Positions 16,875 to 56,601 of a stretch of 64,000 nucleotides of DNA are shown piece after piece. The position numbers and the translations under genes are program-made. The stretch is taken from contig NC_021833.1 of NCBI RefSeq assembly GCF_000439455.1, positions 310,001 to 374,000 of the forward strand, in the 5' to 3' direction. Position 1 is the stretch's first letter. Every line of letters begins with the position of its first letter. The stretch is from Spiroplasma diminutum CUAS-1. Its GTDB lineage: Bacteria > Bacillota_I > Bacilli_A > Mycoplasmatales > Mycoplasmataceae. The notes beneath the pieces are model-generated. The model was given only the letters and a program-made list of their open reading frames with translations. It ran no database searches and was not told the origin of the DNA.

Positions 16875-18275
16875 ATGTCTGATAGCATTAGAATTTTAAA
16901 AATAAATAAAATTTTAGATAATGATTTAGAAGATACAACTCAGGATTATTCAACTGAGGGTTTTTGATTTGAAGATAATTTAGAAGAATCAATTTCTATG
17001 GATTTTGATAAAACTATAGCTTTAAAAAATAAAAGTGTTTCAAAAATTAATTTAGTTCAAAATGCTAACTCTCATTTTTTTGAACCAAAAAAAGCAAATA
17101 ATTTAGATTTTCAAAAAAGTGATATTGAAAATAATTCATTTGAATCAATAAATATTATAGACAAAGTAATAAAACCTGCAGATTCTCGTATAAGAAAAGA
17201 AATTATTGATATGAGAAGAATGAGTTTTGAAAATGAACAAAGAGATAAGGAATATTTATTAAGTAAACTTAATGTTGATTTAAAACCTCATAATAATTTT
17301 AAAAATTATAATTTAGCTAAAAATGAAACAGTTGTTCCAGATTCGGATTTTATTGCTGAAAAAATTAACCAATTGAATGAACCGATCAATCAACAATTAC
17401 AAGAAATTGAAAAAGGAGTTCATAAAATAGAAAAAGTTATAGAAGATCTACAAGAAGTTATTAAAAAACCTATATTAGAGAGTAAACCAGAAGAAATTAT
17501 TAAAAGTGGTATTGATGAGAAAATAACTGAGGAAATAACTGAAAAGAAAAAACCCGAATTTAAAAGAACAAATTTTTTACTTAAAGATGAATCTATATTC
17601 CAAGAAGAAAAAAATGAAAATGATAAAAAAGAATTAGTTGAAAAAGAATTAGTTGAAAAAGAATTAGTTGAAAAAGTTGAAGACGAAAATACTCATGAGT
17701 TTATACTAGTTTCTGATAAATTAAAAACTAAAAATGATAAATTGAATGAAGAAGATAAAAATGAAAATAAATTAGCTTTAGTTTCATTAGAAAAAATAGA
17801 AAAAGAAGTTGAAAAAAACATTATGGTAAAATTTGATGATATAAATCATAAACAAAATAATAAAGATTCTTTAATTCCAAATAAATCTAAAAAGAGAACA
17901 CTTTTTGATGAAATGGATACCAAGGAATTAAATTCATTTTTTGAAGATGATAAAAATAGTTATTCACTTCCAGTGATTAATAATACAGATTATACTGTTG
18001 CAAACACTGTAGATGATTTAGATAAGGCAATTAACAACTTGGAATTTGGAAGTAAAAAAATTAGAGAAAAAGAAAAATTCTTTGACCAAGAAGGTGGAAC
18101 TACTCAACTTGTTGAAGGATTACAAGAAACTTTAAAAACAAACAAAAGAAATTCTATAGAACCTATAAATTTTGATTCATTTGAAAATTGATTTAATAAT
18201 TCAAAAGATGTAAAAAAATTAACTAAATTAGCTAAAAAAGAAAATAAAAGAATGAATAAAACAATTAAAAAATAA
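16875..18275 (+). CDS. Charged, repeat-containing hypothetical protein
   Basis: A 466-aa, highly charged, Lys/Glu/Asn-rich protein with no signal peptide or membrane segment and probably long disordered and coiled-coil parts. The segment near residues 165-200 (INQLNEPINQQLQEIEKGV) is helical. It contains three exact ELVEK repeats at about residue 253. The start at 16875 (GGTGGAGGA SD) adds 41 residues before the first standard-code methionine, across one TGA Trp. It lies 11 nt before mnmA. Family not recognised; its composition resembles the cluster at 25-29 kb. Confidence 0.75.
17631..17675 (+). repeat. 15-nt tandem repeat x3 in coding sequence
   Basis: The unit GAATTAGTTGAAAAA occurs three times head-to-tail without mismatch, encoding ELVEK x3. 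Unit length is a multiple of 3, so copy changes keep the frame. Confidence 0.95.
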
Positions 18276-18283
18276 GGCGATAA

Positions 18284-19414
<1,131 letters not shown>

Positions 19415-39470: not shown

Positions 39471-40250
39471 ATGAAAACAAATATGCAAATTAAAGAAGAA
39501 CTTGCAAGTCAAGGCTATATTTGAATGCCAGCTTATAAAAACATCTTACAGAGAGTGTGACAGCACACTGAAACTTATTTTGATGATGATGAAACAGTAC
39601 TTTCAGCTCTTTGAGCAAGTTTTAAAAGATATGAAGATAAAATGGTTGGAATTGTTTTCATTACAGATAAAAGAACTTTTACATTAGAAATTTTAGACAA
39701 TGATTTGAGTACTCAAATAAGATATCTTCCGTTCGATTCATATTCACTTCAAAAAATTCAATTACAATTCTCAAAAAATAGTGGAGGATTACATTATGTT
39801 TCACTTCAAAACGATAGTTTTGGAAATGGAGTTACATTTGGAACTCCAAATAAAGATGTTGCACAACATTTTGTAGATACTCTAAGTGGAAGAACTAATG
39901 GAAAAATTGAAATTCTTCCAGATTCTGATAATCCATTATTAGCAGAAAATGAAAGAGAACAAGTAATTGACGAAAATTTAGAAAAAGCAAAAGAAGTAGT
40001 TCCTCATAAATTTGAAAAAAAACATGAAGAAATCAAACCTATGAAAGAATTTGACCAATGAAGAAAAGCTCCTCCTGAAGCTAAAGATAAAGTTGTTGAA
40101 ATTAAAGTAGTTCCTCCAAAAAAAGTTAAGCAAAAAAAAGACAAAAAGGGAACATATGCTGAAAAATGAAAATCAAAAACATGATTACTTTGATTTTTAT
40201 TACCAGTAATAGGTTTAGGAACAATACTTATGATAATATTTATTGCTTAA
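39471..40250 (+). CDS. Tail-anchored protein with PH-like domain
   Basis: A 259-aa protein. Residues ~1-50 are helical, and ~55-145 form a beta-rich domain (MVGIVFITDKRTFTLEIL, then strands to HFVDTL) reminiscent of bacterial PH/YokE domains. A charged, Pro/Lys-rich linker follows, then one C-terminal membrane span (about 237-258, WLLWFLLPVIGLGTILMIIF). The first 57 residues and the tail are reached only with TGA as Trp. The SD is AAAGGGGG. The PH-like call rests on pattern only. Probably the cytoplasmic domain is tethered to the membrane. Confidence 0.7.
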
Positions 40251-40257
40251 TAACAAA

Positions 40258-40281
40258 AAAATTCGCTTTATAGCGAATTTT
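40258..40281. terminator. Bidirectional terminator
   Basis: A 10-bp stem (40258-40267 with 40272-40281) with a TTAT loop, A-rich on the left and T-rich on the right. It serves both the PH-like gene (+) and the convergent lipoprotein gene (-), whose stop codon it overlaps. Confidence 0.88.
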
Positions 40282-42817
40282 ATTTTCTTTTAATTGAATA
40301 AATTTGTCATTCAGTTGCATTAGCTTCTAGAAGCAATTTAATTTCATAGTTAAATTGCTTTTTGCTTTTTGGATCAATGAAAGTAGTTGTATAAGTTATA
40401 CCTGCTTCTTTATATCCATCATCAATTCCATAATAACTGTTTACCTTAGTTTTAAAGTTATTTGATTGAATTAAAGGTTTGTAAATTGTTGTAGATAAGT
40501 CATTTTTAACTTTATTTACATCACTAAATCCGTTCATTATTTGGTCAAGTAAGCTATTAACTGAAGTATCATCAACAATACTTTCAAGTCCTAATAACAA
40601 TGAATTATCTCTAAATGCTAAGTTATTTTGCTTTCCATTTTCATCAAAATCAGTTCCTAAAGCATACATAGCTGCTTTAGCACCTTTAACATTTGAATTT
40701 TTAATTTCAGTATCAGAATCTTTAATACCAAGATATAAACCTGGTTTACTTGCAGTAATCATTAATGTTTGAATTGCAGTATATTTGTTTTCTGTTTTTT
40801 CTGTTAAATTTCCTACTAAATAATCTTTATCACCTGAAGAATATATTGAATATTTTTCATCAATTAATGATGAAGCTATATTTTTAAGTCCTGATGAAAT
40901 TCCTTTTGAAGATTCTTCAAGTTCTTTTACTCTTTTTGTGTTAAGTGTTGAAGAATTAATAGCATTGTATATAAAGTTTAAAACTTCCGATATTGTTTTG
41001 CCATTATATACTGATCCACTTAATATTGTTTCAAGAGAGATATTTTCAGTTCCTTTAGTAATTTCTTTTAAAAATCCTGAATCCTTACTTCAAAGAGCTG
41101 TTCAAGAGTTCTTCATTATATTAATAGATTCATCAGAAAATCTAAGATCTATTTTTAGACCAAAAGGGCTTAAATAATTAAATAGAGCATTTAATCCATT
41201 AATTGAGCGTCCTTCTACGACCATATCAATTGATCCTCTCAGTAGATTTCCTATTTGATCAGGTCCTATATCGCCAACAATAGGAATTTTGATTGTAATA
41301 TTTTGTCATTGGCCTAAACCACTACCTAAAGCGTAAATTATTGGAGATAAACCTTCTCTGAATTTATAATCTCCAGAAATATCGATAAATATTTTTCCTA
41401 ATTTTGTAGTTCAAACAACTGCAGGAATTCCAAAAGGATTATTAAAATCAATACTTGTTGAACTTGCTGTTTGAAATAATAAACCAATTAATTTAGCGAG
41501 TTGTAAACCATCAGTATTATTTTTAGTATCAAAAGCAATTGATAAATTTTTTATTAATCTTTTTGTTTTAAATTTTGAATTTGCAAAATCCTTTTCGCCT
41601 AATTCCTTTAAAAATTTAAGATTAGGTTTTTCTTTTTTACCAACTTCACCCTTATATGAGTATAAGTCATTATGTTTTGTTGGTTGATCTAATGAAAAAT
41701 CAATACTTGTAATTCTTTGCAATATTCCTGAAATTACAAATAAAATATCAGGAATTAATGAAGCAATATTTGATGTATTTAAATCATCCATATTTTCAAA
41801 GAATTTAGCCATTACATTTCCCATACTTTTTTCAAAATCATAATCAATATCTGTATATAGTAAAGATTTATCTTTAATTATACTTTCTGTTTCTCCTGCT
41901 AAAGATGCAAAAATGTTATTTATTCTTTTTACAGTTGCATTCATTATCATTTTATTAGTCAAATTTTCAATATTGTCCATTGTTAAAATTGAGTTTATTA
42001 ATGTATCAATAAAATAAGTTAATACTCCATCTTTTCATATGAATGAATAATCAACATTTAGTAGAGTTTTTAAAATTCCTTCAATAATTGTTGTTAGATC
42101 ACTTTGTTTAAAAGCATTTAAAAAATTAGCATTAAGTAAATTTGATATTGCATTATAAGTTATTTTTGAATTAGCTAATATTTTAATTAATATAGCAATA
42201 GTATCAGAAAAATTATTTAAAATATCAGATACTGATTTCATTGATTCTGCACTAACTGATTCAATTGAATTTTCATTTAATGGTAATTGAGGAAGAAGTC
42301 CTTGCAATAAACCTGAGATACTTGGATGAATTCCACCATTTGATTTAATAGCACTTATAATTAAAGTTATAATTCCTGATATGTTATCAATAGAAGTATT
42401 TGGTGAAATTACTTTATTTGATAAAAATAAGGTATTTGAATAACTTGGATTTGTTCTATTATTTAGTTCATTTATAGAACTTCTAGTATAACTTGAAGCA
42501 TTTTTTCCAAAATAATTATCTCCCAATAGACCAATAGTTGTTTGATTATCAGTTTTAAAACTTGGTAATAAATCATTTGCTTTTGATGAATCAATTAAAT
42601 TATTAAAGTATTCTGCATCATATGCATATCCTTTATTTAAATCTTGAGTTGCATTTTGAATCATTGCTCCCCTTAATAAAGCAGATGAAACCTGAGTTAA
42701 ATTTGAAATTTTATTTTTTATAGATGTTTTAACATTATTTACTGTACTACAACTGGCAACACTTGCAGTTGAAGCAGTTATAGCAACTACTCCTAAAAGA
42801 GAAATTAACTTTTTCAT
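40280..42817 (-). CDS. Large surface lipoprotein, MOLPALP-like, copy 1
   Basis: An 845-aa lipoprotein. The signal peptide MKKLISLLGVVAITASTASVAS is followed by lipobox C23, so it is predicted to be acylated and exposed on the cell surface. The mature part is helical and Ser/Asn-rich with blocks shared with copy 2: NDLLPSFKTDNQTT, SNGGIHPSISGLLQG, YALGSGLG, IGPDQIGN, GAKAAMYALGTD, and a basic C-terminus (IKRK). TGA Trp codons join several standard-code fragments; I read the central gap codon by codon and found no stop. The features suit the MOLPALP lipoprotein family of Mollicutes as I recall it. The leader has AAGGAG and TCGGG. Confidence 0.85.
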
Positions 42818-42846
42818 TTTCCCGACTACTCCTTTTATTATTCTTT

Positions 42847-42852
42847 ATTATA
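42847..42852 (-). promoter_or_regulatory. -10 for lipoprotein copy 1
   Basis: ATTATA on the plus strand, read as TATAAT on the minus strand, 30 nt before the start codon; part of the palindrome ATTATATAAT. Confidence 0.5.
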
Positions 42853-42911
42853 TAATGAAAAATAAAATTTTTTTAGGAAATGAAAACATTTTATAAAAAA
42901 ATTTTAAATAA

Positions 42912-42935
42912 AAATGCTAGTTTTTACTAGCATTT
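42912..42935 (-). terminator. Terminator after lipoprotein copy 2
   Basis: A 9-bp stem AAATGCTAG/CTAGCATTT with a 6-nt loop; on the minus strand a T-rich tail follows. The stop codon lies at the stem base. Confidence 0.85.
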
Positions 42936-45384
42936 AAATCCTTTTAATTGTATTTATTTGTCATGAAGTTTCATTTACTTTTAATAATAAATTAACTTCA
43001 TATTCAAAAATTTTATTTTGGAAGGGGTCTTTATAAATTATTTGATATTTTATTGATTGATCTAAATTATTATTATCAATATTTTCATAATTAATTTTTT
43101 TAGTTGTAAAGTTATTATCTTTGATTAACTTCTTGTAAATGGTATTTGAAATATTATCGTTTATTTTTCTTATATCAGAAAATCCATTAAGTAAGTCATC
43201 TAATATATTATTTGTTATTGGGTCATCTACAATACTTTCTAATGCTTCTAAAAAAGAATCAGACCTAAAAGAACTATTAATTTGATTTCCATCAGAATCA
43301 TAATCAGTTCCTAAAGCATACATAGCTGCTTTAGCACCTTTAATATTCTCATTAATTGCAGAGTCATTTATTTTTAAATATAATCCACCTTTTTTTGATG
43401 CAATTATCATCGTTTGAAGAGCGGTATATTTACCATTGTTACTATGCTCTTCAAATTTATTAAATTTATTTCCTTTTTTAAATCATAGTTCATAGTTTTC
43501 ATTTATTAAAGCTTTTGAAAGTATATCTAAACCATTTGCTAATTTTTCAGCTTTTCTTTCAGTGATATTACTTTTTGTATTCCTTTTATTAGATTCATTT
43601 GATTCAATGTTTTTATAAACTAAATCAAATATATCAGATATAGTCATACCAGTTACTATTTCATTTGTAAAAAGTGAATATAAACTTATTTGTTTTCCTG
43701 TAATATCTTTTAATAGTGTTGAATCTTCATCTCATAAAGCACTAAATAAATGTTTTAAATGTTGAGTAGATGAAGCACTTACTTTAAAGTTAATTTCAAC
43801 TCCAAATCCTTTTAAAATATCTAGTACTTTATTTAATCCACTAAAATCAGAGTTAAAACCAAGTCCATCACCTAATACTCAACGTAAAGCATTTCCTACT
43901 TGATCAGGACCAATTCCTGCAAAACTTCATCCTTGTCAAACAGCAAGACCATTTCCCAATCCATATAGTACTGATGAGTAGTTGTTTTTTTTATTTTGTA
44001 AAAGGGGTATAGAACTTAATTTTGAAATAAGTGAAAATGAAGTTATATTTTCTTCAATATTTGTAACTTTTTCTCCAGAATTAAATAAAAGATAAAACAT
44101 TTTTTGCAGTTGTTTACCTTTAAAATCCTCTTTAGCGTTAGTAATAGTTGATAAATTTTTTAATATTCTTTTAGTACTATAAGGATTTTGTTTAAGAGTT
44201 AATTTAGCATTTTCTTCTAAAAATTGATTATTGTTTTTATTATTATCAAATAAATATTCATCATTTTCTGGTGTAAATATTGAAAAATCAACTGATGATA
44301 TATGTTTTAATAGGGATGAAATTACAAATAAAAGATCAACTATATTTTCAGGTTCTTTTATAAATAGATTTAATAATGAATTGATATTAAAATCATTTAA
44401 ATTTGGATTAAGTTTTTTAAAAAATTCTCCAATTATTGAACCTAAAGTTTTATCAAAATTCTTATCTAAAGAATATATTTTATTTTTATCAACTATTTTA
44501 TTACTTTGTTCACTCATTCTTGCAAAAATATTGCTTATTTTATTTAGTGATGCATTTAATATCATTTCTCCAGTTAATTGCTCAGACTGCATATCTTGAG
44601 ACAATATAGAATTTATTAAATTATCAAAAATATCTGCAAAACCTGATAAATCGATTTCTTCTAAAAATTGATTCACTCATTTAAAAATATTTGTGTTATT
44701 TTTTTCTTTTACAGAATTTTCAAAATCTGAATTAAAAAAGTTCTTTAAAACAGCATAAAAAGCATTTGATTCTTGTAATGCTGCTAAAGTATGAGATAAG
44801 GGTTTACTTATTTTCTCAATCATTTGAGCGATAGACATTAAATTTTGTGAACTCAATGATTCTATTAAATCATCACTTAAATTTAAACTAGGCAATATTC
44901 CTTGTAATAAACCTGAAATGCTTGGATGAATCCCACCATTCGATTTAATAGCACTAGCTGCAACTACAAAAGTTGAAGAAAATTCATCTGTAGAACTTGT
45001 GGGTTTTTTTACATTTTCTGTTAAAAAATTTTCATTTTTTTCATTAATTTTACTTCTACTCAAATCTTGATTATTAAAATATGAGTCATTTAGTTGTTTT
45101 AAAGTAGTTTGATTATCTGTTTTAAAGCTTGGCAATAAATCATTTGCCTTTGAATTGCTTATAAGAGTATTTAAAAAATTACTATCATAAGCAAATTGAT
45201 TTTTTAAATTTTGACTAGCATTTTGTATTACTGTTCCTCTCATTAGAGTTGAAGATATTTTAACTAGATTATCTACTTTATTTTTAACTGATTGCTTTGT
45301 AGAATTAACCATACTACATGAAGCAACAGATAAAGTAGAAGTACCTATACTAATAGCTCCTAACAATATAATTAGTTTTTTCAT
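42934..45384 (-). CDS. Large surface lipoprotein, MOLPALP-like, copy 2
   Basis: An 816-aa lipoprotein with signal peptide MKKLIILLGAISIGTSTLSVAS and lipobox C23. It shares order and wording of blocks with copy 1 along its whole length (VIQNASQNL, NDLLPSFKTDNQTT, SNGGIHPSISGLLQG, GIGPDQVGN, GAKAAMYALGTDY) and the same basic end (INTIKRI). The frame was checked across 43411-43935 and is open with TGA as Trp. It is transcribed divergently from the first FtsX-like permease. It is clearly a paralogue from tandem duplication; ligand or role unknown. Confidence 0.87.
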
Positions 45385-45516
45385 TTTATCCCCCGATATT
45401 CATAATTATATTTTTTATTTATGATAAAATATTTTGGTATTTTAAAATAATTTTAGAAAAGTATAAAATATTCTAATATTTAATTCATTTTATTTAAAAG
45501 TCGGGGGATATTAAAA
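45385..45516. promoter_or_regulatory. Divergent regulatory region, lipoprotein 2 / permease 1
   Basis: 132 bp between divergent starts. Each side carries a G-rich leader: ATCGGGGGATAAA before the lipoprotein (minus, around 45385-45397) and GTCGGGGGATATT before the permease (plus, 45500-45512). Minus-strand TATAAT is at 45405-45410 and plus-strand TATAAA at 45462-45467. The layout predicts joint control. Confidence 0.6.
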
Positions 45517-48500
45517 ATGAAAAAATCTTTAATTTTATATTTAAAACAAGGTATTAAAGGTGTGATGAAATTTAAAGTGCAATTTTTAGTAATTGTCATT
45601 TTAAGTTTTTTAGCTACTTTTATATTAAGTATTTCTCTATCAACATCACAAAGAATAAATAATGATTATAAAAATGCAATGTCAAAAATGCAAAAGTTTG
45701 ATTACATCGGACAAAAAACTGTAGGTTCAAAAATATCAGAAGAATCAGGAACAAAATTACTTTCAACAATGGATTTAATAAATAACCAATTTTTATATGT
45801 AAAAAAAACAGGTGAAGAATCTTCGACTCTTTGAAATAGGGCAATTGATATAAATCATAATTTGAGTTATTTTGAAAATATTAATGGATATGAAGAAACA
45901 TTTTTAACAAAAACTTTTCAAACAAAAGAGTTTCAAGAAAATTTTATTAATTTGCTTAACAAAGATTTTTTTTGAAACTCAATTTTTGATTATAAATATG
46001 ATCAAGAATTAAATCAACAACTTTGAAATCCAACACTATTAAATTATTCTTTGGACATAACAAGTTACAACTATTTAAATAATTTCAATGAAAAACAAGC
46101 AGAAATGAAAAAATTTTATATAGATAGTATTGAATTATTGAAAAAAAACTTTGTAAATGATTTATTCCAAGAAAATACACCACAATATTTGAAAAATACT
46201 TTATTTTATGAACTAAAGAGTAAAAATATAATTACCCAAGAAGATTTTAATAATGAGGCTCTTTTAGATGATGAAGATAGAAATATTTATAACAGATATT
46301 TATATTTTTCAATTGAACCATTCATAAGACAAATAATAAATGCATCAATTGAATATCCAAAATATTGAATAAATAAAGCAATTAACGAATCTAAACAAAA
46401 AAATTTAGAAGATGTTATACGTACATTCAATGAAAATAAAGAAAAAATAGGCTTTGAATGAATGCAAGAATCTAATGCTGACTTTGGCTTAGTTATTTTT
46501 AAATGAATATTTGGATTTAATCCTTCAATTGAGCAAGAAAGTATAGATGAAAACATAAATAACCCATTTATTGTTACTATTGACAATAAACCATGAAAAA
46601 ATAATATTGATTTAGGAAAAGATAATGATTTAAACGAATACTTAGATACAAAAAATTCAGTATTTGAAAAAGGTATGCGAGGTAGTTTAAATCAACTTGT
46701 AGTAAGAAGTGAAAATAATAAAATCTTGGGAATAGATAAAACATTTGATACAAATTTTTTAAAACATAATTTTGATGGTACAACTTTGGAAGAAAGAATT
46801 GCGAACGGAAAAGGATTTTGACATACAGAAGACTATAAAGAAAGTTATAGATGTAATAAAATCAATGACATAATAGCATTTTTTGTTAGAAGTGAAATAA
46901 TAGCCCAAGCAACGGGATTCGAATATAATATAAGAGGAGAAATTGAATTTACAGATCTTGCTACAGAAATAAGTTATAGAATAGTAGATATTCAAAATAA
47001 TTGAAAAAAGAGAATTACTATTTATGAAGGTAACATGCCGAGAACTAAAAACGAAATTTTAATTAATTCGCAATTTGCAAGAGCCAATAAATATAAGGTT
47101 GGACAAAATATTAAAGTTGGAGAAGGAAATTTTATAATTTCAGGAATAGGTGTAGATCCTTTAACATATTATCCTATGGGAAATACACGAAATCCTTTAC
47201 CAAATAATAAAAAGAATGTAATTATTTACATAAATGATGATAATTTAGAAAAGATATTTCCAGAAGGTTCTAAATTTGATCAGACAAGTACAAAATCTCT
47301 TTATAGTATTTATACAAACTTTGAAAATCCAATAAATGAAATTAATCAAAATTTTAAAAAACTTCAGGCACTTTCATTAAATAATGTAGTTGAAGTTTAT
47401 AATTCATACAAATACTTAAATAACATTGATTCTGAATTAAAAAGTACAAACTATATAAATAGTTATTCTTCATTTAATTCATCAAATTTAAAATTAAATT
47501 GAACGATAGCGCCAACTATTTTAAATTCTTTTAGAGCATTTGCATATATATTTACATTATTAATATTTATTATTACAATTATAGCTACAGTAGTTGCTGT
47601 TAAAAAGACAGTGGAATTAAATGCTGGAGAAATTGGTATTTTAAAAGCAATAGGTGTAAAAAACTGACAAATATCCTCATCCTATTTTTCTTATGGTATT
47701 GTTACAGGATTATTTATAGTGCCAATCGCATGACTTGCTGGGGCATTCATTCAGGAATTTATATCTATAATATTTTTAAATTTTGTGAGTGGAAAATTTA
47801 ATACTATTGTAATTAATCCTTTTGGACTCTTGTTGTCAGTACTTATTTTTGGGGTGTTACTATGTTTAATTTCTTTCTTTACTGCATATTTTCTAGTTAA
47901 AAAGCCAGTTTTAGAAGTTATTAATAAAGTTACAAGAGTTAAAAGAATTCAATGAATAGATACATTTAAAAATAGAATTTTTAAATCAAGAGGTTTTTCA
48001 ACTAGATTTAGTATTGAATTAGCAGTATCGGGATTCAGTAAAACTATATTGTCATCAATTACTATATTTTTTGCAGCATTTTTTATATCATTTGGTTTAA
48101 CAATTCCAGGTTTAGTTCAAAATGTTGTTCAAAGCTATTATAAGAATATTAATTATCAAAATTCTATGCAAAATACAGAATTGGTAGGTAATGCGCCATT
48201 GGCAAAAACATCATTGAGTGTAACTAAGGAAATAGAAGAATATGAATCAAATTTATTTGATAGTAATAATATATTTGGAAATGATATTTTAAAAATATCA
48301 AAAGATATTACAAATTTTGCACCTTCAGTGGATTCATCAGTAATTCCACAACTTTTATTATCAGCTAATCAAATTGAAAGCAATGATAATAAAATAGATG
48401 CTAAATGAGTTTATGATTACATTACTAATATTAATGAAAATGAAATATCAAATGCAGAAAATTCTCTAATATCAATAATAGGTAGTTTAATGGGAAATAA

Positions 48501-50667
48501 TCTAAAACAATTAGTTGGTAAGGGATTGTCTCTTTCTGATATTCAAAAAATCCTTGAATGAGTAATACATTCAAATAATTTTAAAACATTTGAAGAAAGA
48601 AAGAAAAAAGTAGATGATCTATCAAGTTTATTAACTAAGGGTTTACCTGAAATTCTTACAAAATTTATTCAAGGTTCAACTACAACTGAAGGAAACTGAA
48701 AAGAACAAATTATAAGTATAATTTTAAGTCAAACTCCATCGTATATTAAACAATATGTTACAAAATCCGAAAATAGACTTAATAATTTTTCATTTGGATG
48801 ACAAATAAATAAATATAATCCAAAAACAGATAGCTTGTATACTGATTTATCAGTTGGCACAAAAAATAATAAATCTTTAAATATTATAGGATTACAATCT
48901 AATCAAAATGCATTTAAAATAAATAAATGAGAAACTGAAGATGTATTTTTAACTGATTATCAAGCAAGTGTAATGGAAAAAATAATAAATGGTGAAGAAA
49001 TTGATGATATGAGTCAAGATAATTCATGATTGAGTAAATTCTATGATGAAAAAAATCAGAAAGTTATAATTCCAGTAATTGCAAGTGATCAAACAGACTT
49101 TACACTTGATAATAATTGAAATAATCTAACAAATCCTACTTTAGAAAAAACAAGACTTATTTTAAGACAAGAATCAATTGATATTCCAAATTTAGCTTGA
49201 ATGTATGATGATGGAGATTGAATTAATTTTAATGGAAATAAAAGTACTAATAATGGATATATAAGTATGAATGATTTATCTGCAAGTAAATTTACTTATG
49301 CACCTATTTTTGAAGAGACTGGATTTAATTTGATAGAAAATAAAAATAATGAATTGAAAGATAATGCATATGGATTTTATAAATTGAATTCTTCAATTGA
49401 AAATGATGAAGAAAAAATAAATTTAGAAATAAGACCTTATTATTCTTATGATAATGTAACTTTATTTATTCCAAAAACCTATATTAATGAGTTTTCTAAA
49501 TTTAAACTTAATGGTAATTTAGAAAAATGATGATTAGAAGATGCAGAATATGTTCCTGAAGAAACTAAAAAAGCATGAGGTAAGATAAACCCTTCATTAG
49601 AATCAAGTCCATATTTTGCAATAAAACCATATTCACTTTATTTTGATAATTCAAACAGTTATGAAAGAGAAGAAGAAAATCTTTCAGGGACACCAATAAA
49701 TAATATAACAACACCTTATGAAAATTTTTTAGGTAAAACTCTTATTGATGATAATGGCCCAATAACTTTTGGAAAAGTTAAAGTGAATTGAAGCAAAAAT
49801 ATAGAGTTTAAAAAAGTAAGTTCAATAGGTGTCTATGGAAAACCTTTAATTATTATTGATCAAAACTTTGCAAATATTTTAAGTAAGTATGATATTTCAA
49901 AATACATTCCATTTAATTTAAAATATGAAGATGAAAATTCACCTTCAAAGACATATACTCAAAATGGTGTTACAGTTAAAACATTTGATTATATAAATCC
50001 ATTAGATTATAAAACTAAATATGAATATGGTAACGAATTAATATACGGATCTGATGAGCAAGAAAAAAGTATTAGACCTAGTTTGTGATATACAGGAATT
50101 TATTCAAATTCTCAGGAACCATATTTTATTACTACACAAGGTTCTTTTTCAAGAGATGTAAAACTTGGTCAAGATATATTAAATGGCTCAAATTATGGAA
50201 GTACGAGCTTGGAATTAAATTCTACAAATTTATTAGGACAACAAAAAACTTTAGTTTTCCAATTATCTGCAATGATTTTAAGTTTAGCAACAGCTGCAAT
50301 AACTTTAATGACAATAATTATAATTTTAACTATTACATTAATAAATGATTTGTATGTAAACCAATATAAAAAATTTATGATAGTTATGAAATCATTAGGA
50401 TATTCAAATTGAAAAATAATAAAATACACATTTGGAACTATGTCAATAGTATCAATTATGTTCTATATTTTAGGAGTAGTTATAAACTTCATTGTTCTTG
50501 GGCTTATTTTCAGTGCAATTAGCAAAAGATTAGGTTCGATTCCTTTTGGACTAACTTGATGAACACCTATTTTAGCAATTATTCTAGTTTTTGGTTCATT
50601 TATAATTTCTATTGCAATTACAACAAGAAAAATTAGAAAAGAGCCAGCTTATTCATTAATGGTTTAA
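45517..50667 (+). CDS. Giant FtsX-like ABC permease, copy 1
   Basis: A 1,716-aa membrane protein with duplicated FtsX-type architecture. An N-terminal span (~17-38) precedes a very large extracellular domain (~40-660). A three-span block follows (~668-795) with AVKKTVELNAGEIGILKAIGV. A single span (~838-866) leads to a second large extracellular domain (~870-1565), and a last three-span block (~1575-1707) contains QYKKFMIVMKSLGYSNW. The NAGEIGILKA and VMKSLGYS segments are the FtsX hallmark contacts to an ATPase. Many TGA Trp codons split it under the standard code. No ATPase is adjacent. The SD is GGGGGA. Confidence 0.88.
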
Positions 50668-50692
50668 AAAAGATAATTTTTATCTTTTTTTC
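50666..50692 (+). terminator. Terminator after permease 1
   Basis: A 10-bp stem AAAAAAGATA/TATCTTTTTT with a 5-nt loop, T-rich tail; begins inside the stop codon. Confidence 0.88.
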
Positions 50693-50739
50693 TTTTTCGT
50701 CAGGCCACTATTAATAATATGAATATTGCTTAGAAATTA

Positions 50740-50748
50740 TGGTATAAT
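50740..50748 (+). promoter_or_regulatory. Extended -10 promoter
   Basis: TGG-TATAAT upstream of the 175-aa gene between the two permeases; no -35 needed for a TGn extended -10. Confidence 0.65.
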
Positions 50749-50777
50749 TTAAAAAATTACTAAAGGAGTTTTACTTT

Positions 50778-51305
50778 ATGAGCGAAAAAGTATATCAGTT
50801 AAATTCAGATCAAATTGGAGTAGTAAATTTTGCAGAACCTTGATTTTTGGCACATTTCGAAATTGAAGGAGAAATTGAACCTGTTCAAATTTTTTTCCCG
50901 TCATTAGCAGAAGGAATTAAAAAGTTTGCTGCTTTCTTTGAAGAGCATGTCATAAATCATTGATTAGCACAAGGCGCTGAAGGTGAGAAAAAAATTCAAG
51001 ATTTAAGAGAATATTTATTAACTACTTGATTTAATCCTGGAGTTGAAACTATGAGAGAAGCAATGTTTCAAACTTATGGTTATCCAGAATTTAAAGAAAA
51101 AACAGGAAAAGAGTTAATTGAAAATGGTTATGATTTTTTAGGAGTTACTATTGGTCATATTTGTTTAAGATTTAATAAAAACCATTTTTATTTCAACGGA
51201 CTACATGTTTCAGGAAGAACAGTTGATAAAATGCTAGCCGTTAATTTTTGATCAAAAGTAAAACAAGAAGCAATGAATGATATTGGAACAACAGTATTCA
51301 AATAG
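50778..51305 (+). CDS. Soluble hypothetical protein between the two permeases
   Basis: A 175-aa protein without signal peptide or membrane span. Conserved-looking segments are FAEPWFLAHFEIEGEIEP, FNPGVETMREAMFQTYGYPEF and NFWSKVKQEAMNDIG; Trp are TGA. It has an AAGGAG SD, its own promoter and its own terminator, so it is not an obligate part of the permease transcript. Family not recognised. Its position suggests the second permease copy was inserted or duplicated around it. Confidence 0.75.
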
Positions 51306-51311
51306 AAATTT

Positions 51312-51355
51312 AAAAAACATTTTTATACAAAAAAATGTTTTTTTTTTTTTTTTTT
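51312..51355 (+). terminator. Terminator with T18 tract
   Basis: AAAAAACATTTTT pairs with AAAAATGTTTTTT across a 6-nt loop and runs into 18 T (51338-51355). Confidence 0.88.
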
Positions 51356-51417
51356 ATTATTTTATAATGATGTATTTTCAACATATTATTTATGTATTAT
51401 TGGTCGGAGAATAAAAA

Positions 51418-54400
51418 ATGAAAAAGTCTTTATTTTTATATTTAAAACAAGGTATAAAAGGAGTAATGAAATTTAAAATACAATTTATTGTAATTGTATT
51501 TTTAAGTTTTTTAGCGACTTTTATTTTGAGCATATCTTTTTCAACTACACAAAGAATAGAAAATAATTTTGAAACAGCAATATCAAAAATGAAAAAGTTT
51601 GATTATGTTAATCAAAAAGTTGTAGGAACTAATTTAGCTGAAGACTCTGGTACAAATATTTTAGCTCCTTTGGATTTAATTAATAGTCAATTTTTATATG
51701 TTAAAAATTCTCAAAATAGTACATCATATAGTCAAAATAGAACAATTGATCTTAATATTAATATTTCTTCATTTGAAGATGAAAATGAATATAATGAAAA
51801 TTTTATAACAAAAACTTTTAGTGATACAAAAATTCAAAAAAAATTTTTAGATTTGTTAACAAATCCAAAATTTTTAAAACCAATATTTAGTTATGATTAT
51901 TCAACAATTACTGAAAAAGTTAATTGAAATCCATTTTATGAAATCAATCATTCTAATTCTTCAACTTCATATACTTATTTAAATAATGTAAGTATCAAAG
52001 AAGAAATTAAAGATTTTTATATAGCTACAATTGAAACTTTAAAAGAAAATTTTATAGAAGATATTTTTGCAGAAGTGACACCAACATATCTCAATAAATC
52101 TTTATTTTTAGAGCTTAAAAATAAAGAAATAATTTCAGAACAAGATTTCAAAAATACTTCACTTGAAAACGATCAAGATAATAATTTATATAGTCGTTAT
52201 TTATATTTTTCTCTTGAGTCAATTATTAGACAACTTATTAACTCAGTTGTTGAATATCCTGTTTATTGAATAAATAAAGCAATTGAAAAATCAATTGCTA
52301 TTTCAGAATCAAGAGAAAGAGAAGATGTAATTAAAACATTTAATGAATATTTTAGTACTTCGGCTGGTTTTAATTTTTTATTATTAGAGGATTCAAATAT
52401 TAAAAGTACAAGTGAAGAAAATAAAATTTTTGCAATAACTGTTTTCAAATGAATTTTTGGATTTAGTCCAACTATTGATGAATATAATATAGCGCAAGAA
52501 TTGGATAATAATTTTATTGTAAAAGAAAATAATAGACCATGAAAAAATAGCATAGATTTAGGAAATACAAATATTGATACTTCAAGATATCTAAATTCAA
52601 AAAGTTCTGTTTTTGAAAATGGTATGAGAGGTAGTTTAAATCAACTTATAGTAAGACCAAGTGCAAATACATATAGTATTGATAAAACTTTTAATACAAA
52701 CTATTTAAAACATTATGATAATTTAAGTATTGAACAATTAATAGGGGAAGAAAAAAGTTTTGGTGATTTAAATAATTATGCAAATAAATATAATTATTCA
52801 AATATAAATACAAAAATAGCTTATTTTATGAGAAATGAAATGATAGCTTCTTTAACAGATTTTGACTATATGACTAGAGCTGAAATGGAATTTACAGATT
52901 TAACAACAGAAATTAGTTATAGAGTTATTGATATTGAAGGATTATGAAAAGATAAAATAACTTTATATGAAGGTAATATGCCAAAATTAGAAAATGAAAT
53001 TTTAATAAATCCTCAATTTGCAAAAACAAATAAATATAAAATAGGTCAAAATATAAAACTTGGTGAAAATAATTTTGTAATATCAGGTTTTGCAACAGAT
53101 CCATTATCTTATTACCCAATGGGAAATACTCAAAACCCATTACCAAATAATAAAAAAAATGCCATTGTTTATGCAAATAGTTCTAATTTTAGAAAAATAA
53201 TTGAAGATAAATTAGAAAAAACTGTTACAAAGTCTATATATAATTTTTTTACCTATAATGGAAATAATAATTTAGAATGAAATAATATTCAAAAATTTAA
53301 AGCTTATTCATTTAATAATATAGTAGAAGTATATAATTCTTATAATTTTATAATGGGTAATGATAGCGAACTAAATACTGAAAAATTTATTAATAATTTT
53401 ACAAATTATAATTCTTCAAATTTTAAATTAAATTGAACAATTGCTCCTTCGATTATCTTTGGTTTTAGAGCATTTTCATATATATTTTTGGCATTGATAT
53501 TTTTAATTACTATTACTGCAACAATAATAGCTGTTAAGAAAACTGTTCATTTAAATTCTGGGGAGATAGGAATTTTAAAATCAATGGGAGTAAGAAATTG
53601 AGAAATATCAATTTCTTACTTATCTTATGGAATAGTTGTTGGATTATTTATAGTTCCATTAGCATGAATTTTAGGATCTTTTATTCAGGAATTTAGTTCA
53701 AATATTTTTTTACAGTTTACCAGCGGAAGATTCAATTTAGTAGTTTTCAGTCCACTTGCATTCTTAATTTCATTTTTTATTTTTGGTTTTATTTTGTGTC
53801 TAATTTCATTTCTAACTGCATTGTTTTTAGTTAAAAAACCTGCACTTGAAATAATTAATAAAACTAATAAAGTAAAACGTATTAAGATAATTGATAGTTT
53901 AAATAGTACATTATTTAAAAATAAAAGTTTCTCAACACGTTTTAGCATGGAACTTGCAATTTCAGGATTTAGTAAGACTTTACTATCTTCTACAACAATA
54001 TTTTTTGCAGCATTCTTTATTTCTTTTGGATTGACCATACCAGGTTTAGTTCAAAATGTAGTTGGAAGTTATTATAAAAATATAAAATACCAAAATTCCT
54101 TTACAGCAAGAGAATTAATTGGTAATGCGCCATTGGCAAAAACATCATTAAGTGCTTCTAAAGAAGTAGATGAATATGACAATAATTTAATGAACAGTAA
54201 CGGAATTTTTGGAGATGGAATAACAAAAATTGGGAAAAACGTAACAGATTTTGCTTCTTCTGTTGATTCTTCTGCGTTTCCCCAAATTTTACTTTCAGAA
54301 AATGAAAATAAAGATATGACTGCAAAATGAACATATGATGAAATGGCTTCGCATAAAAATAATTTAAATATCGATGAAAATAATCAAAATTCTTTAATTG

Positions 54401-56601
54401 CAATTATTGCAAGCATTTTAGGAAATAATATTAAGCAACTTGTAGGTAAAAGTATAACAATTGCTGACGTTCAAAAATTATTAGAATGAGTAATTCATTC
54501 AGATAATAAAGAATTTGAAAATGATTTTAATGCTAGATTAAATAAAGTAAATGAATTATCAAATTTATTAACAGATGGTTTACCACAACTTTTAACAAAA
54601 TTTATTAGTGGAAGTTCTATAAGTGAAGGGAACTGAAAAGAACAAATTATTGATATTATAATTTCTCAAACGCCTTCATATATAAAACAATATGTTATTA
54701 AATCAGAAAATAGATTGAATAACTTTATGTTTGGGTGGCAAGTTAATAAATATATTCCTGGAGAAGATACTTTGTACACAAGTTTGGATATAAAAACAAA
54801 GAATAATCAAGATCTATCAATGACAGGTTTATTAAGTCATCAAAATGCTTACTCTATAAAAGAAGAAGATAAAAATAAAGTTTTTATTAATGATTATCAA
54901 GCTCAGTTAATTGAAAGAGTAATTAATGATGAAAAGTTTGACGAAATTCCTAATGAGATTAAAGATTATTATGATGGAGATAACATTGTTATACCAGTTA
55001 TTGCAAACGACCAAACTAATTTTTTAATTCAAAATGATTGAAATAATTTAACAGATCCATTTTTAGAAAAAACTCGTTTAATTTTAAAACAAGATTCAGT
55101 TAACATTCCAAATTTAGCATGAATGTATGATGATGGGGATTGAATTAAATATAATAAAAAAGAAAATTTTGATAATGGATATTTAAAAATGGATGGACTA
55201 TCTCCGTCAAAATTTACTTATGCTCCAATTTTTAATGAAACAGGATTTAACTTGATAAAAAATACATCAGAAAATTTAAGCCTAGTAGATAATTCATATG
55301 GTTTTTATAATCTTACATCTGATCTAAATTCAAAAGATGAAGAAGTTAATTTAGAGATAAGACCTTATTATTCATTTGATAATATTACTTTATTTATTCC
55401 TGAGGATTTTAAAGAGAATTTCGAAAAACTTAAATTTAAGGGAAATAAAAACACAAAAGATTGATGATATGAAGACGCTTCATTTATTCCAGAGGTTACA
55501 AGAAAAGCTTGAGGAAAATTAAATCCTAAATATGCAGATTTAAGTCAAAGGTATTTTGCAATAAAACCTTATTCATTGAATTATGATAATTCAGGTAATT
55601 ATACTAGAGAAAAAAGCAATTTATCAGGTCAACCTGTTGAAAATATTTCACAAGATTATGAAAACTACTTTGGAAGAAGTCTTAGAGATGAAGATGGTCC
55701 AATAACATTTGCAAAAACAAATATTAAATGAAATAAGAAAATTAAGTTTAAACAAGTTGGTTCAATTAATGTTTATGGAACTTCATTAATGATTATTGAT
55801 CAAAATTTTGCAAATATATTGAATGGATATGGTATTTCAAAATATATTCCTTTTAATTTAAAGTATGAAACTAGTTCAAAACCAACAGGAAGCTATTCTG
55901 AAGGTGGGATTAAGATAAATACATTTAAATATATTGAGCCTTTAGAATATTATGATAAAGATCAAAATGAATTGATTTATGGAGATACAGAATTTGAAAA
56001 AAGTATTAGACCAAGTAACTGATACAATGGAATGCTTTCTAATTCAAAAGAACCTTACTTTATTACATCACAAGCATCATTCTCAAGAGATATTAAAACT
56101 GGACAAGATATTCTTAATGGTTCTAATTATGGTTCTTCTGTTTTAGAATTAAATTCAACACATTTATTAGGCCAACAGAAAACTTTAATTTTTCAACTAT
56201 CAGCTATAATTTTAAGTTCTGCAAGTATAGCTATATCTTTAATGATTTTAATAATTATTTTAACTGTTACTTTAATTAATGATTTATATGTAAATCAGTA
56301 TAAAAAATTTATGATAGTTATGAAATCTTTAGGATATTCAAATTGAAATATCACAAGGTATACATTTGGAACAGTAACAATATTATCTTTAATATTCTAT
56401 ATTTTAGGAGTTATAACTAATTTTATAGTTATTGGTTTAATTTTTAATTTAGTAAGTAAAAAACTTGGTTCAATTCCATTTGGTTTAACTTGATGATCAC
56501 CAATTCTTGCTATTATTTTAGTATTTGGTTCATTTATAATTTCAATTATGATAACAACAAGAAAAATTAGAAAAGAATCTCCTTCAACATTAATGAATTA
56601 A
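51418..56601 (+). CDS. Giant FtsX-like ABC permease, copy 2
   Basis: A 1,727-aa paralogue of the permease at 45.5-50.7 kb with the same order. It opens MKKSLFLYLKQGIKGVMKFK with one span, then ectodomain 1, three spans with AVKKTVHLNSGEIGILKSMGV, and one span with AAFFISFGLTIPGLVQNVV. Ectodomain 2 and three spans follow. Shared ectodomain blocks include NPLPNNKKNA, GNAPLAKTSLS, PNLAWMYDDGDW and KFTYAPIF. Trp are nearly all TGA, with one TGG (FGWQVNK). The SD GGAGA is in a TCGGAGA leader. No ATPase is adjacent; it probably pairs with an ATPase elsewhere or with copy 1. Confidence 0.88.

Follow-up and report, generated by a model that had tools for sequence, protein, structure and literature searches.

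A giant lipoprotein and a giant FtsX-type permease paired at one locus of Spiroplasma diminutum and in related genomes

The window analyzed here is a stretch of 64,000 nucleotides from the forward strand of Spiroplasma diminutum CUAS-1 (contig NC_021833.1, positions 310,001–374,000), whose genome consists of one contig of 945,296 bases. Reading the open reading frames under genetic code 4, we found four intact genes at the locus (Table 1), in agreement with the preliminary description, which had placed two lipoproteins of ~830 aa on the minus strand and two FtsX-type permeases of ~1,720 aa on the plus strand. Both sets are indeed full-length paralogues (LP1 and LP2 are 41% identical end to end, the permeases 60%), and the inner genes share one divergent spacer. 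The tandem arrangement that had also been described holds for the lipoproteins but not directly for the permeases, as P0005 intervenes. This gene was considered as a third component and ruled out, since it occurs in 20/20 genomes of the genus, including five without the module. The hairpin between the two lipoprotein genes, which comes from a pattern scan only, fits separate lipoprotein transcripts. A third permease, 38% identical, is located at 855.5–860.5 kb of the genome with no lipoprotein adjoining it. At 824–836 kb (L011), two remoter giant FtsX proteins of 1,380 and 1,461 aa adjoin lipoproteins of 347 and 670 aa; this cluster lies beside truA-like and ecfT-like genes, and locus L197 is arranged similarly.

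Table 1. Genes and other features of the locus, in window coordinates (residue numbers for the topology)
Feature	Position	Strand	Description
LP1 (P0001)	40280..42817	-	predicted lipoprotein, 845 aa; intact ORF, lipobox Cys23, 41% identity with LP2
5' element before LP1	42818..42827	-	AGTCGGGAAA
Hairpin between LP2 and LP1	42912..42935		pattern scan only
LP2 (P0002)	42934..45384	-	predicted lipoprotein, 816 aa; weak MOLPALP match (49.9 bits, cut-off 65)
LP2/permease 1 divergent spacer	45385..45516		132 bp; aligned with relatives
5' element before LP2	45389..45396	-	TCGGGGGA
5' element before permease 1	45501..45508	+	TCGGGGGA
Permease 1 (P0003)	45517..50667	+	1716 aa, two FtsX domains
Permease 1 topology	TM1 23-41, ectodomain 1 ~42-676, TM2-4, TM5 843-861, ectodomain 2 ~862-1585, TM6-8		predicted from hydropathy
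P0005	50778..51305	+	soluble protein, 175 aa; neighbour gene outside the module
5' element before permease 2	51404..51411	+	TCGGAGAA
Permease 2 (P0004)	51418..56601	+	1727 aa, tandem copy of younger age, two FtsX domains

The Pfam domain FtsX (PF02687) is found twice in each window permease and in 18/18 aligned members of the family; the MacB-like core ectodomain (PF12704) was matched in 3/18 members, with a best E-value of 0.002. Hydropathy predicts eight transmembrane segments per permease, which form two halves of four helices each; the ectodomains, of ~630 and ~720 residues, follow TM1 and TM5, so that in either half the first and second helices enclose one. FtsX-type halves built in this way, with a large ectodomain inserted after the first of four helices, are known from LolCDE, and a LolD-type ATPase is likewise present in the genome. 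In a fold search with the C-terminal half of the permease, the top 43 PDB matches were all type VII ABC proteins, with LolE first and LolE and LolC as the best fold matches, although the best E-value is only 0.012 and the model is of low confidence (the mean pLDDT of the AlphaFold models is 44 for the lipoprotein and 48 for the permease, both poor). Unlike LolCDE, the module permease fuses both halves into one chain of ~1,720 aa with ectodomains several times larger, and the module comes without a co-encoded ATPase, without an outer membrane and with a dedicated lipoprotein partner. The permeases look like two LolC/LolE halves fused, with giant ectodomains. Common ancestry of lipoprotein and permease ectodomains was considered and dropped (profile comparison probability 0.2).

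In both LP1 and LP2 the lipobox cysteine is residue 23, the signal peptide ending in ...SVASC-S, and the signal-peptide domain NF045726 scores above its cut-off for LP1. Searching with the lipoprotein family MOLPALP (NCBIfam TIGR04547; curated cut-off 65 bits), we obtained a match below the cut-off for LP2 and none for LP1. Their relatives fare better: 23/27 aligned lipoproteins match MOLPALP, several of them end to end and above the cut-off, and members of group A3 exceed it (e.g. L119, with 73.5 bits end to end and 27% identity to LP1). The window lipoproteins are divergent MOLPALP relatives. In a tree including 23 hand-picked MOLPALP proteins that are not linked to a permease, the permease-linked proteins form a single clade (support 0.936, none misplaced), separate from the other sampled branches. 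Mass spectrometry has detected a MOLPALP lipoprotein in Mycoplasma mycoides capri (PMC12453214), so at least one member of the family is made as protein. Comparing the lipoprotein sequence with solved structures gave matches at chance level and no credible relatives, and the search for an enzymatic domain detected none. The AlphaFold model of the lipoprotein is helix-rich and reliable solely at both ends, its central helical part being unreliable; a fold search with it returned just weak NTF2-like matches to the C-terminal sheet, which we do not count as evidence. Elsewhere in the family we observed a recurring trio at nine loci (L200–L202, L204–L206 and L209–L211), made up of a two-TM protein of ~310 aa, a lipoprotein of ~370 aa and a MOLPALP lipoprotein of ~690 aa, as well as tandem arrays of large lipoproteins flanked by two conserved genes (L198, L199).

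To describe how the two families are distributed, we surveyed 198 genomes of the order, with a genus sample of 20 genomes, and read 40 neighbourhoods. Permease matches occur in 67/198 and LP1 matches in 25/198 genomes; a scan of named genomes gave six loci, all from Mesoplasma or Acholeplasma. A large lipoprotein-like protein adjoins 39 of the 44 permeases that reach 1500 aa, and of these adjacent partners 29 are divergent upstream, 8 co-directional upstream and 2 downstream. Four of the five unpaired permeases are the second of two whose mate has a partner, and the fifth is the orphan at 855.5–860.5 kb. Within the genus sample, 15 genomes carry both genes, five carry neither and none carries a single gene (the one weak permease match among the non-carriers, in G165, belongs to another FtsX protein of smaller size). 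Where the module is missing, in these five genomes, the genes that flank it (orthologues of the gene at 39471–40250 and of P0005) are directly adjacent, with nothing between them. Independent occurrence of the two families, which the preliminary description had taken as the outcome that would speak against one system, is thus not what the genomic co-occurrence shows for the permease-linked lipoprotein clade. Co-localization does not extend to the family as a whole: some MOLPALP branches occur apart from the giant permease, and many of their members do not adjoin one. The pairing is real, and both genes behave as a single inherited unit; no report of it was found in the open-access part of the literature, which the search covered. 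We also noted that the permease frame is split or interrupted by stops at three loci, L115 (G150), L117 (G121) and L120 (G106); in G150 and G106 LP1 is absent too and the 5' element described below is altered.

FastTree phylogenies were built for 44 permeases and 49 lipoproteins and compared over 38 adjacent pairs. Permease and lipoprotein distances correlate with 0.918 over these pairs (maximum after shuffling 0.214), and 29/35 splits are common to both trees (shuffle mean 0.17). This co-phylogeny is partly owed to the common history of the species. Pairing within genomes that carry two modules is a stronger test of co-inheritance than the match of whole trees: where the two modules diverged anciently, which is so in four genomes (G042, G094, G103 and G159), adjacent genes match each other best, and all top-ranked pairings keep neighbours together. 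The module copies are closer to each other in G177, G183 and G115, and swapping partners hardly alters the match there; in G115 the whole module has been duplicated. The lipoprotein pair is common to six species of the same genus, each of which has one permease at the locus, which indicates that the permease duplication is the younger one. A joint duplication of lipoproteins and permeases in the window was accordingly ruled out, as the trees give different ages.

All four window genes are preceded by a short element with the consensus RTCGGGRRA, the end of its TCGGG core usually lying 3–12 nt (1 nt in one case) from the start codon. TCGG was found close before the start in 21/21 module genes of seven species, a set chosen after the motif had been noticed, so that the weight rests on the controls: at the same place, only 2/283 other ORFs of the same regions carry TCGG. 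In six relatives the RTCGGGRRA element recurs at the locus, the rest of each genome being almost free of it, and the pattern TCGGGRR-N0-12-ATGAAR has its sole genome-wide matches at the locus in the genome of the window and in G124, G067 and G020. TTGG variants occur in more than one gene of two species. No copy of the element precedes the orphan permease, and beyond the genus a single case was found. That the element is an ordinary Shine–Dalgarno sequence is unlikely, as LP1 has AAAGGAG besides and 281/283 other ORFs have no TCGG there; a search of the region for a known RNA family gave none. One motif-bearing ATPase, at 463 kb, was rejected as a partner: it is DrrA-like, and motif matches outside the cluster occur at the level of control patterns. 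Taken together, the adjacency, the matching trees, the loss of both genes from a locus that is otherwise intact and the near-private common 5' element give good support to the earlier proposal that lipoprotein and permease belong to one surface system. The lipoproteins may also, as proposed there, pass substrate to the permease ectodomains or gate them.

A LolD/MacB-type ATPase gene alongside a type VII permease is usual, not universal. There is no ATPase gene at the locus, which we count against an ATP-driven reading. The sole clear LolD/MacB-type ATPase among the ABC ATPases of the genome that we inspected (17969–18625) stands alone and is matched in 195/198 genomes; by inference, it would power the permeases in trans.

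On these grounds we propose, with a probability of roughly 0.6, that the module is a two-part surface machine consisting of an ATP-driven type VII ABC permease and a dedicated extracellular lipoprotein partner. The giant permease would be the transmembrane subunit (of the LolC/LolE, MacB and FtsX kind), whose single chain would unite two four-helix halves with enlarged ectodomains. Inside the cell it would be bound by an ATPase from another locus, for which the lone LolD/MacB-type protein near 18 kb is the likeliest candidate, and ATP binding and release would move both ectodomains. Their target would be the membrane-anchored lipoprotein, which they would load, unload or reshape. The cargo would most plausibly be hydrophobic and belong to the outer leaflet, as a lipid, a sterol or a lipoprotein would; lipid or sterol is our best guess. 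Against this reading count the poor AlphaFold models, the modest E-value of the best fold match and the orphan permease, which has no lipoprotein adjoining it, so that a permease may also work alone.

Several more specific or competing readings can be weighed against the same data. It is a tentative possibility that the module acquires lipids or sterols, a mostly helical lipoprotein capturing host lipid and the permease inserting it into the membrane. Mollicutes rely on host lipids, and membrane-embedded cargo is frequent for type VII ABC proteins; both facts favour such a role, and the predicted helix-rich lipoprotein, a low-confidence model, would be consistent with it. A precedent is P116 of Mycoplasma pneumoniae, also a large helix-rich mollicute surface protein, whose large cavity is hydrophobic, with amphipathic helices as its lining, and which has been proposed to perform both extraction and uptake unaided (PMC10023570). 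The module would be a P116-like but energised system; lipid binding is one hypothesis for it, and no sequence relation between P116 and the window lipoproteins was detected. In addition, host lipid limits Spiroplasma growth, as cited in a passage of PMC5726471. Against lipid acquisition stand the chance-level matches of the lipoprotein to solved structures, the unreliability of the very helices in the centre of its model, and the five species of the same genus that live without the module. Mechanotransmission of the FtsEX–EnvC kind, in which the permease would toggle the lipoprotein (an enzyme, an adhesin or a signal) between active and inactive states with no transported cargo, is conceivable, though doubtful. 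The permease belongs to the same superfamily, an ATPase in trans would suffice, and in FtsEX–EnvC/PcsB and MacAB, too, an FtsX-type permease has an extracytoplasmic partner of its own; however, the partner in the module is a lipoprotein of ~830 aa with no enzymatic or MacA-like domain detected, and its wall-less host offers no peptidoglycan target, nor an outer membrane.

A LolCDE-like role, in which the permease would extract the lipoproteins encoded next to it as cargo for release or shedding, is improbable. The LolE and LolC fold matches and the fact that almost every partner is a lipoprotein would agree with an extractor, but a general extractor needs no co-evolving partner. Moreover, in three distant members (L133, L138 and L148) the lipobox cysteine of the partner is replaced by phenylalanine and its gene still immediately precedes that of the permease, in the same orientation; pairing that is kept after loss of this cysteine favours a partner over a lipoprotein cargo. 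A neighbourhood without function, i.e. ancient gene order and slow rearrangement beside lipoproteins that are variable surface antigens, is likewise improbable: the tig–lon–rarA context, also found in Mesoplasma and hence marking an ancient location, and the fast divergence of the lipoproteins (down to 16–20% identity among relatives) would fit it, but second copies at other loci stay paired and move as a unit, both genes are lost jointly with the neighbours retained, and the common 5' element is absent from the neighbours.

The two-part surface machine remains our preferred reading. Its most far-reaching form, taken as a whole, is rather unlikely: an energised machine, not described before, with which wall-less bacteria would handle lipids, made up of a fused LolC/E-like permease and a dedicated giant lipoprotein whose genes would be tied together by a private 5' control element that a regulator reads. 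No function for giant FtsX permeases or MOLPALP lipoproteins was found in the literature searched, and together they occupy a sizeable part of some of the smallest genomes. Their link in a module turns two ‘unknown’ families into one testable system, for which deletable pairs, natural losses and a common control element serve as handles. Should lipid be what it carries, the module would be relevant to the way in which minimal cells that depend on sterol supply their membranes.
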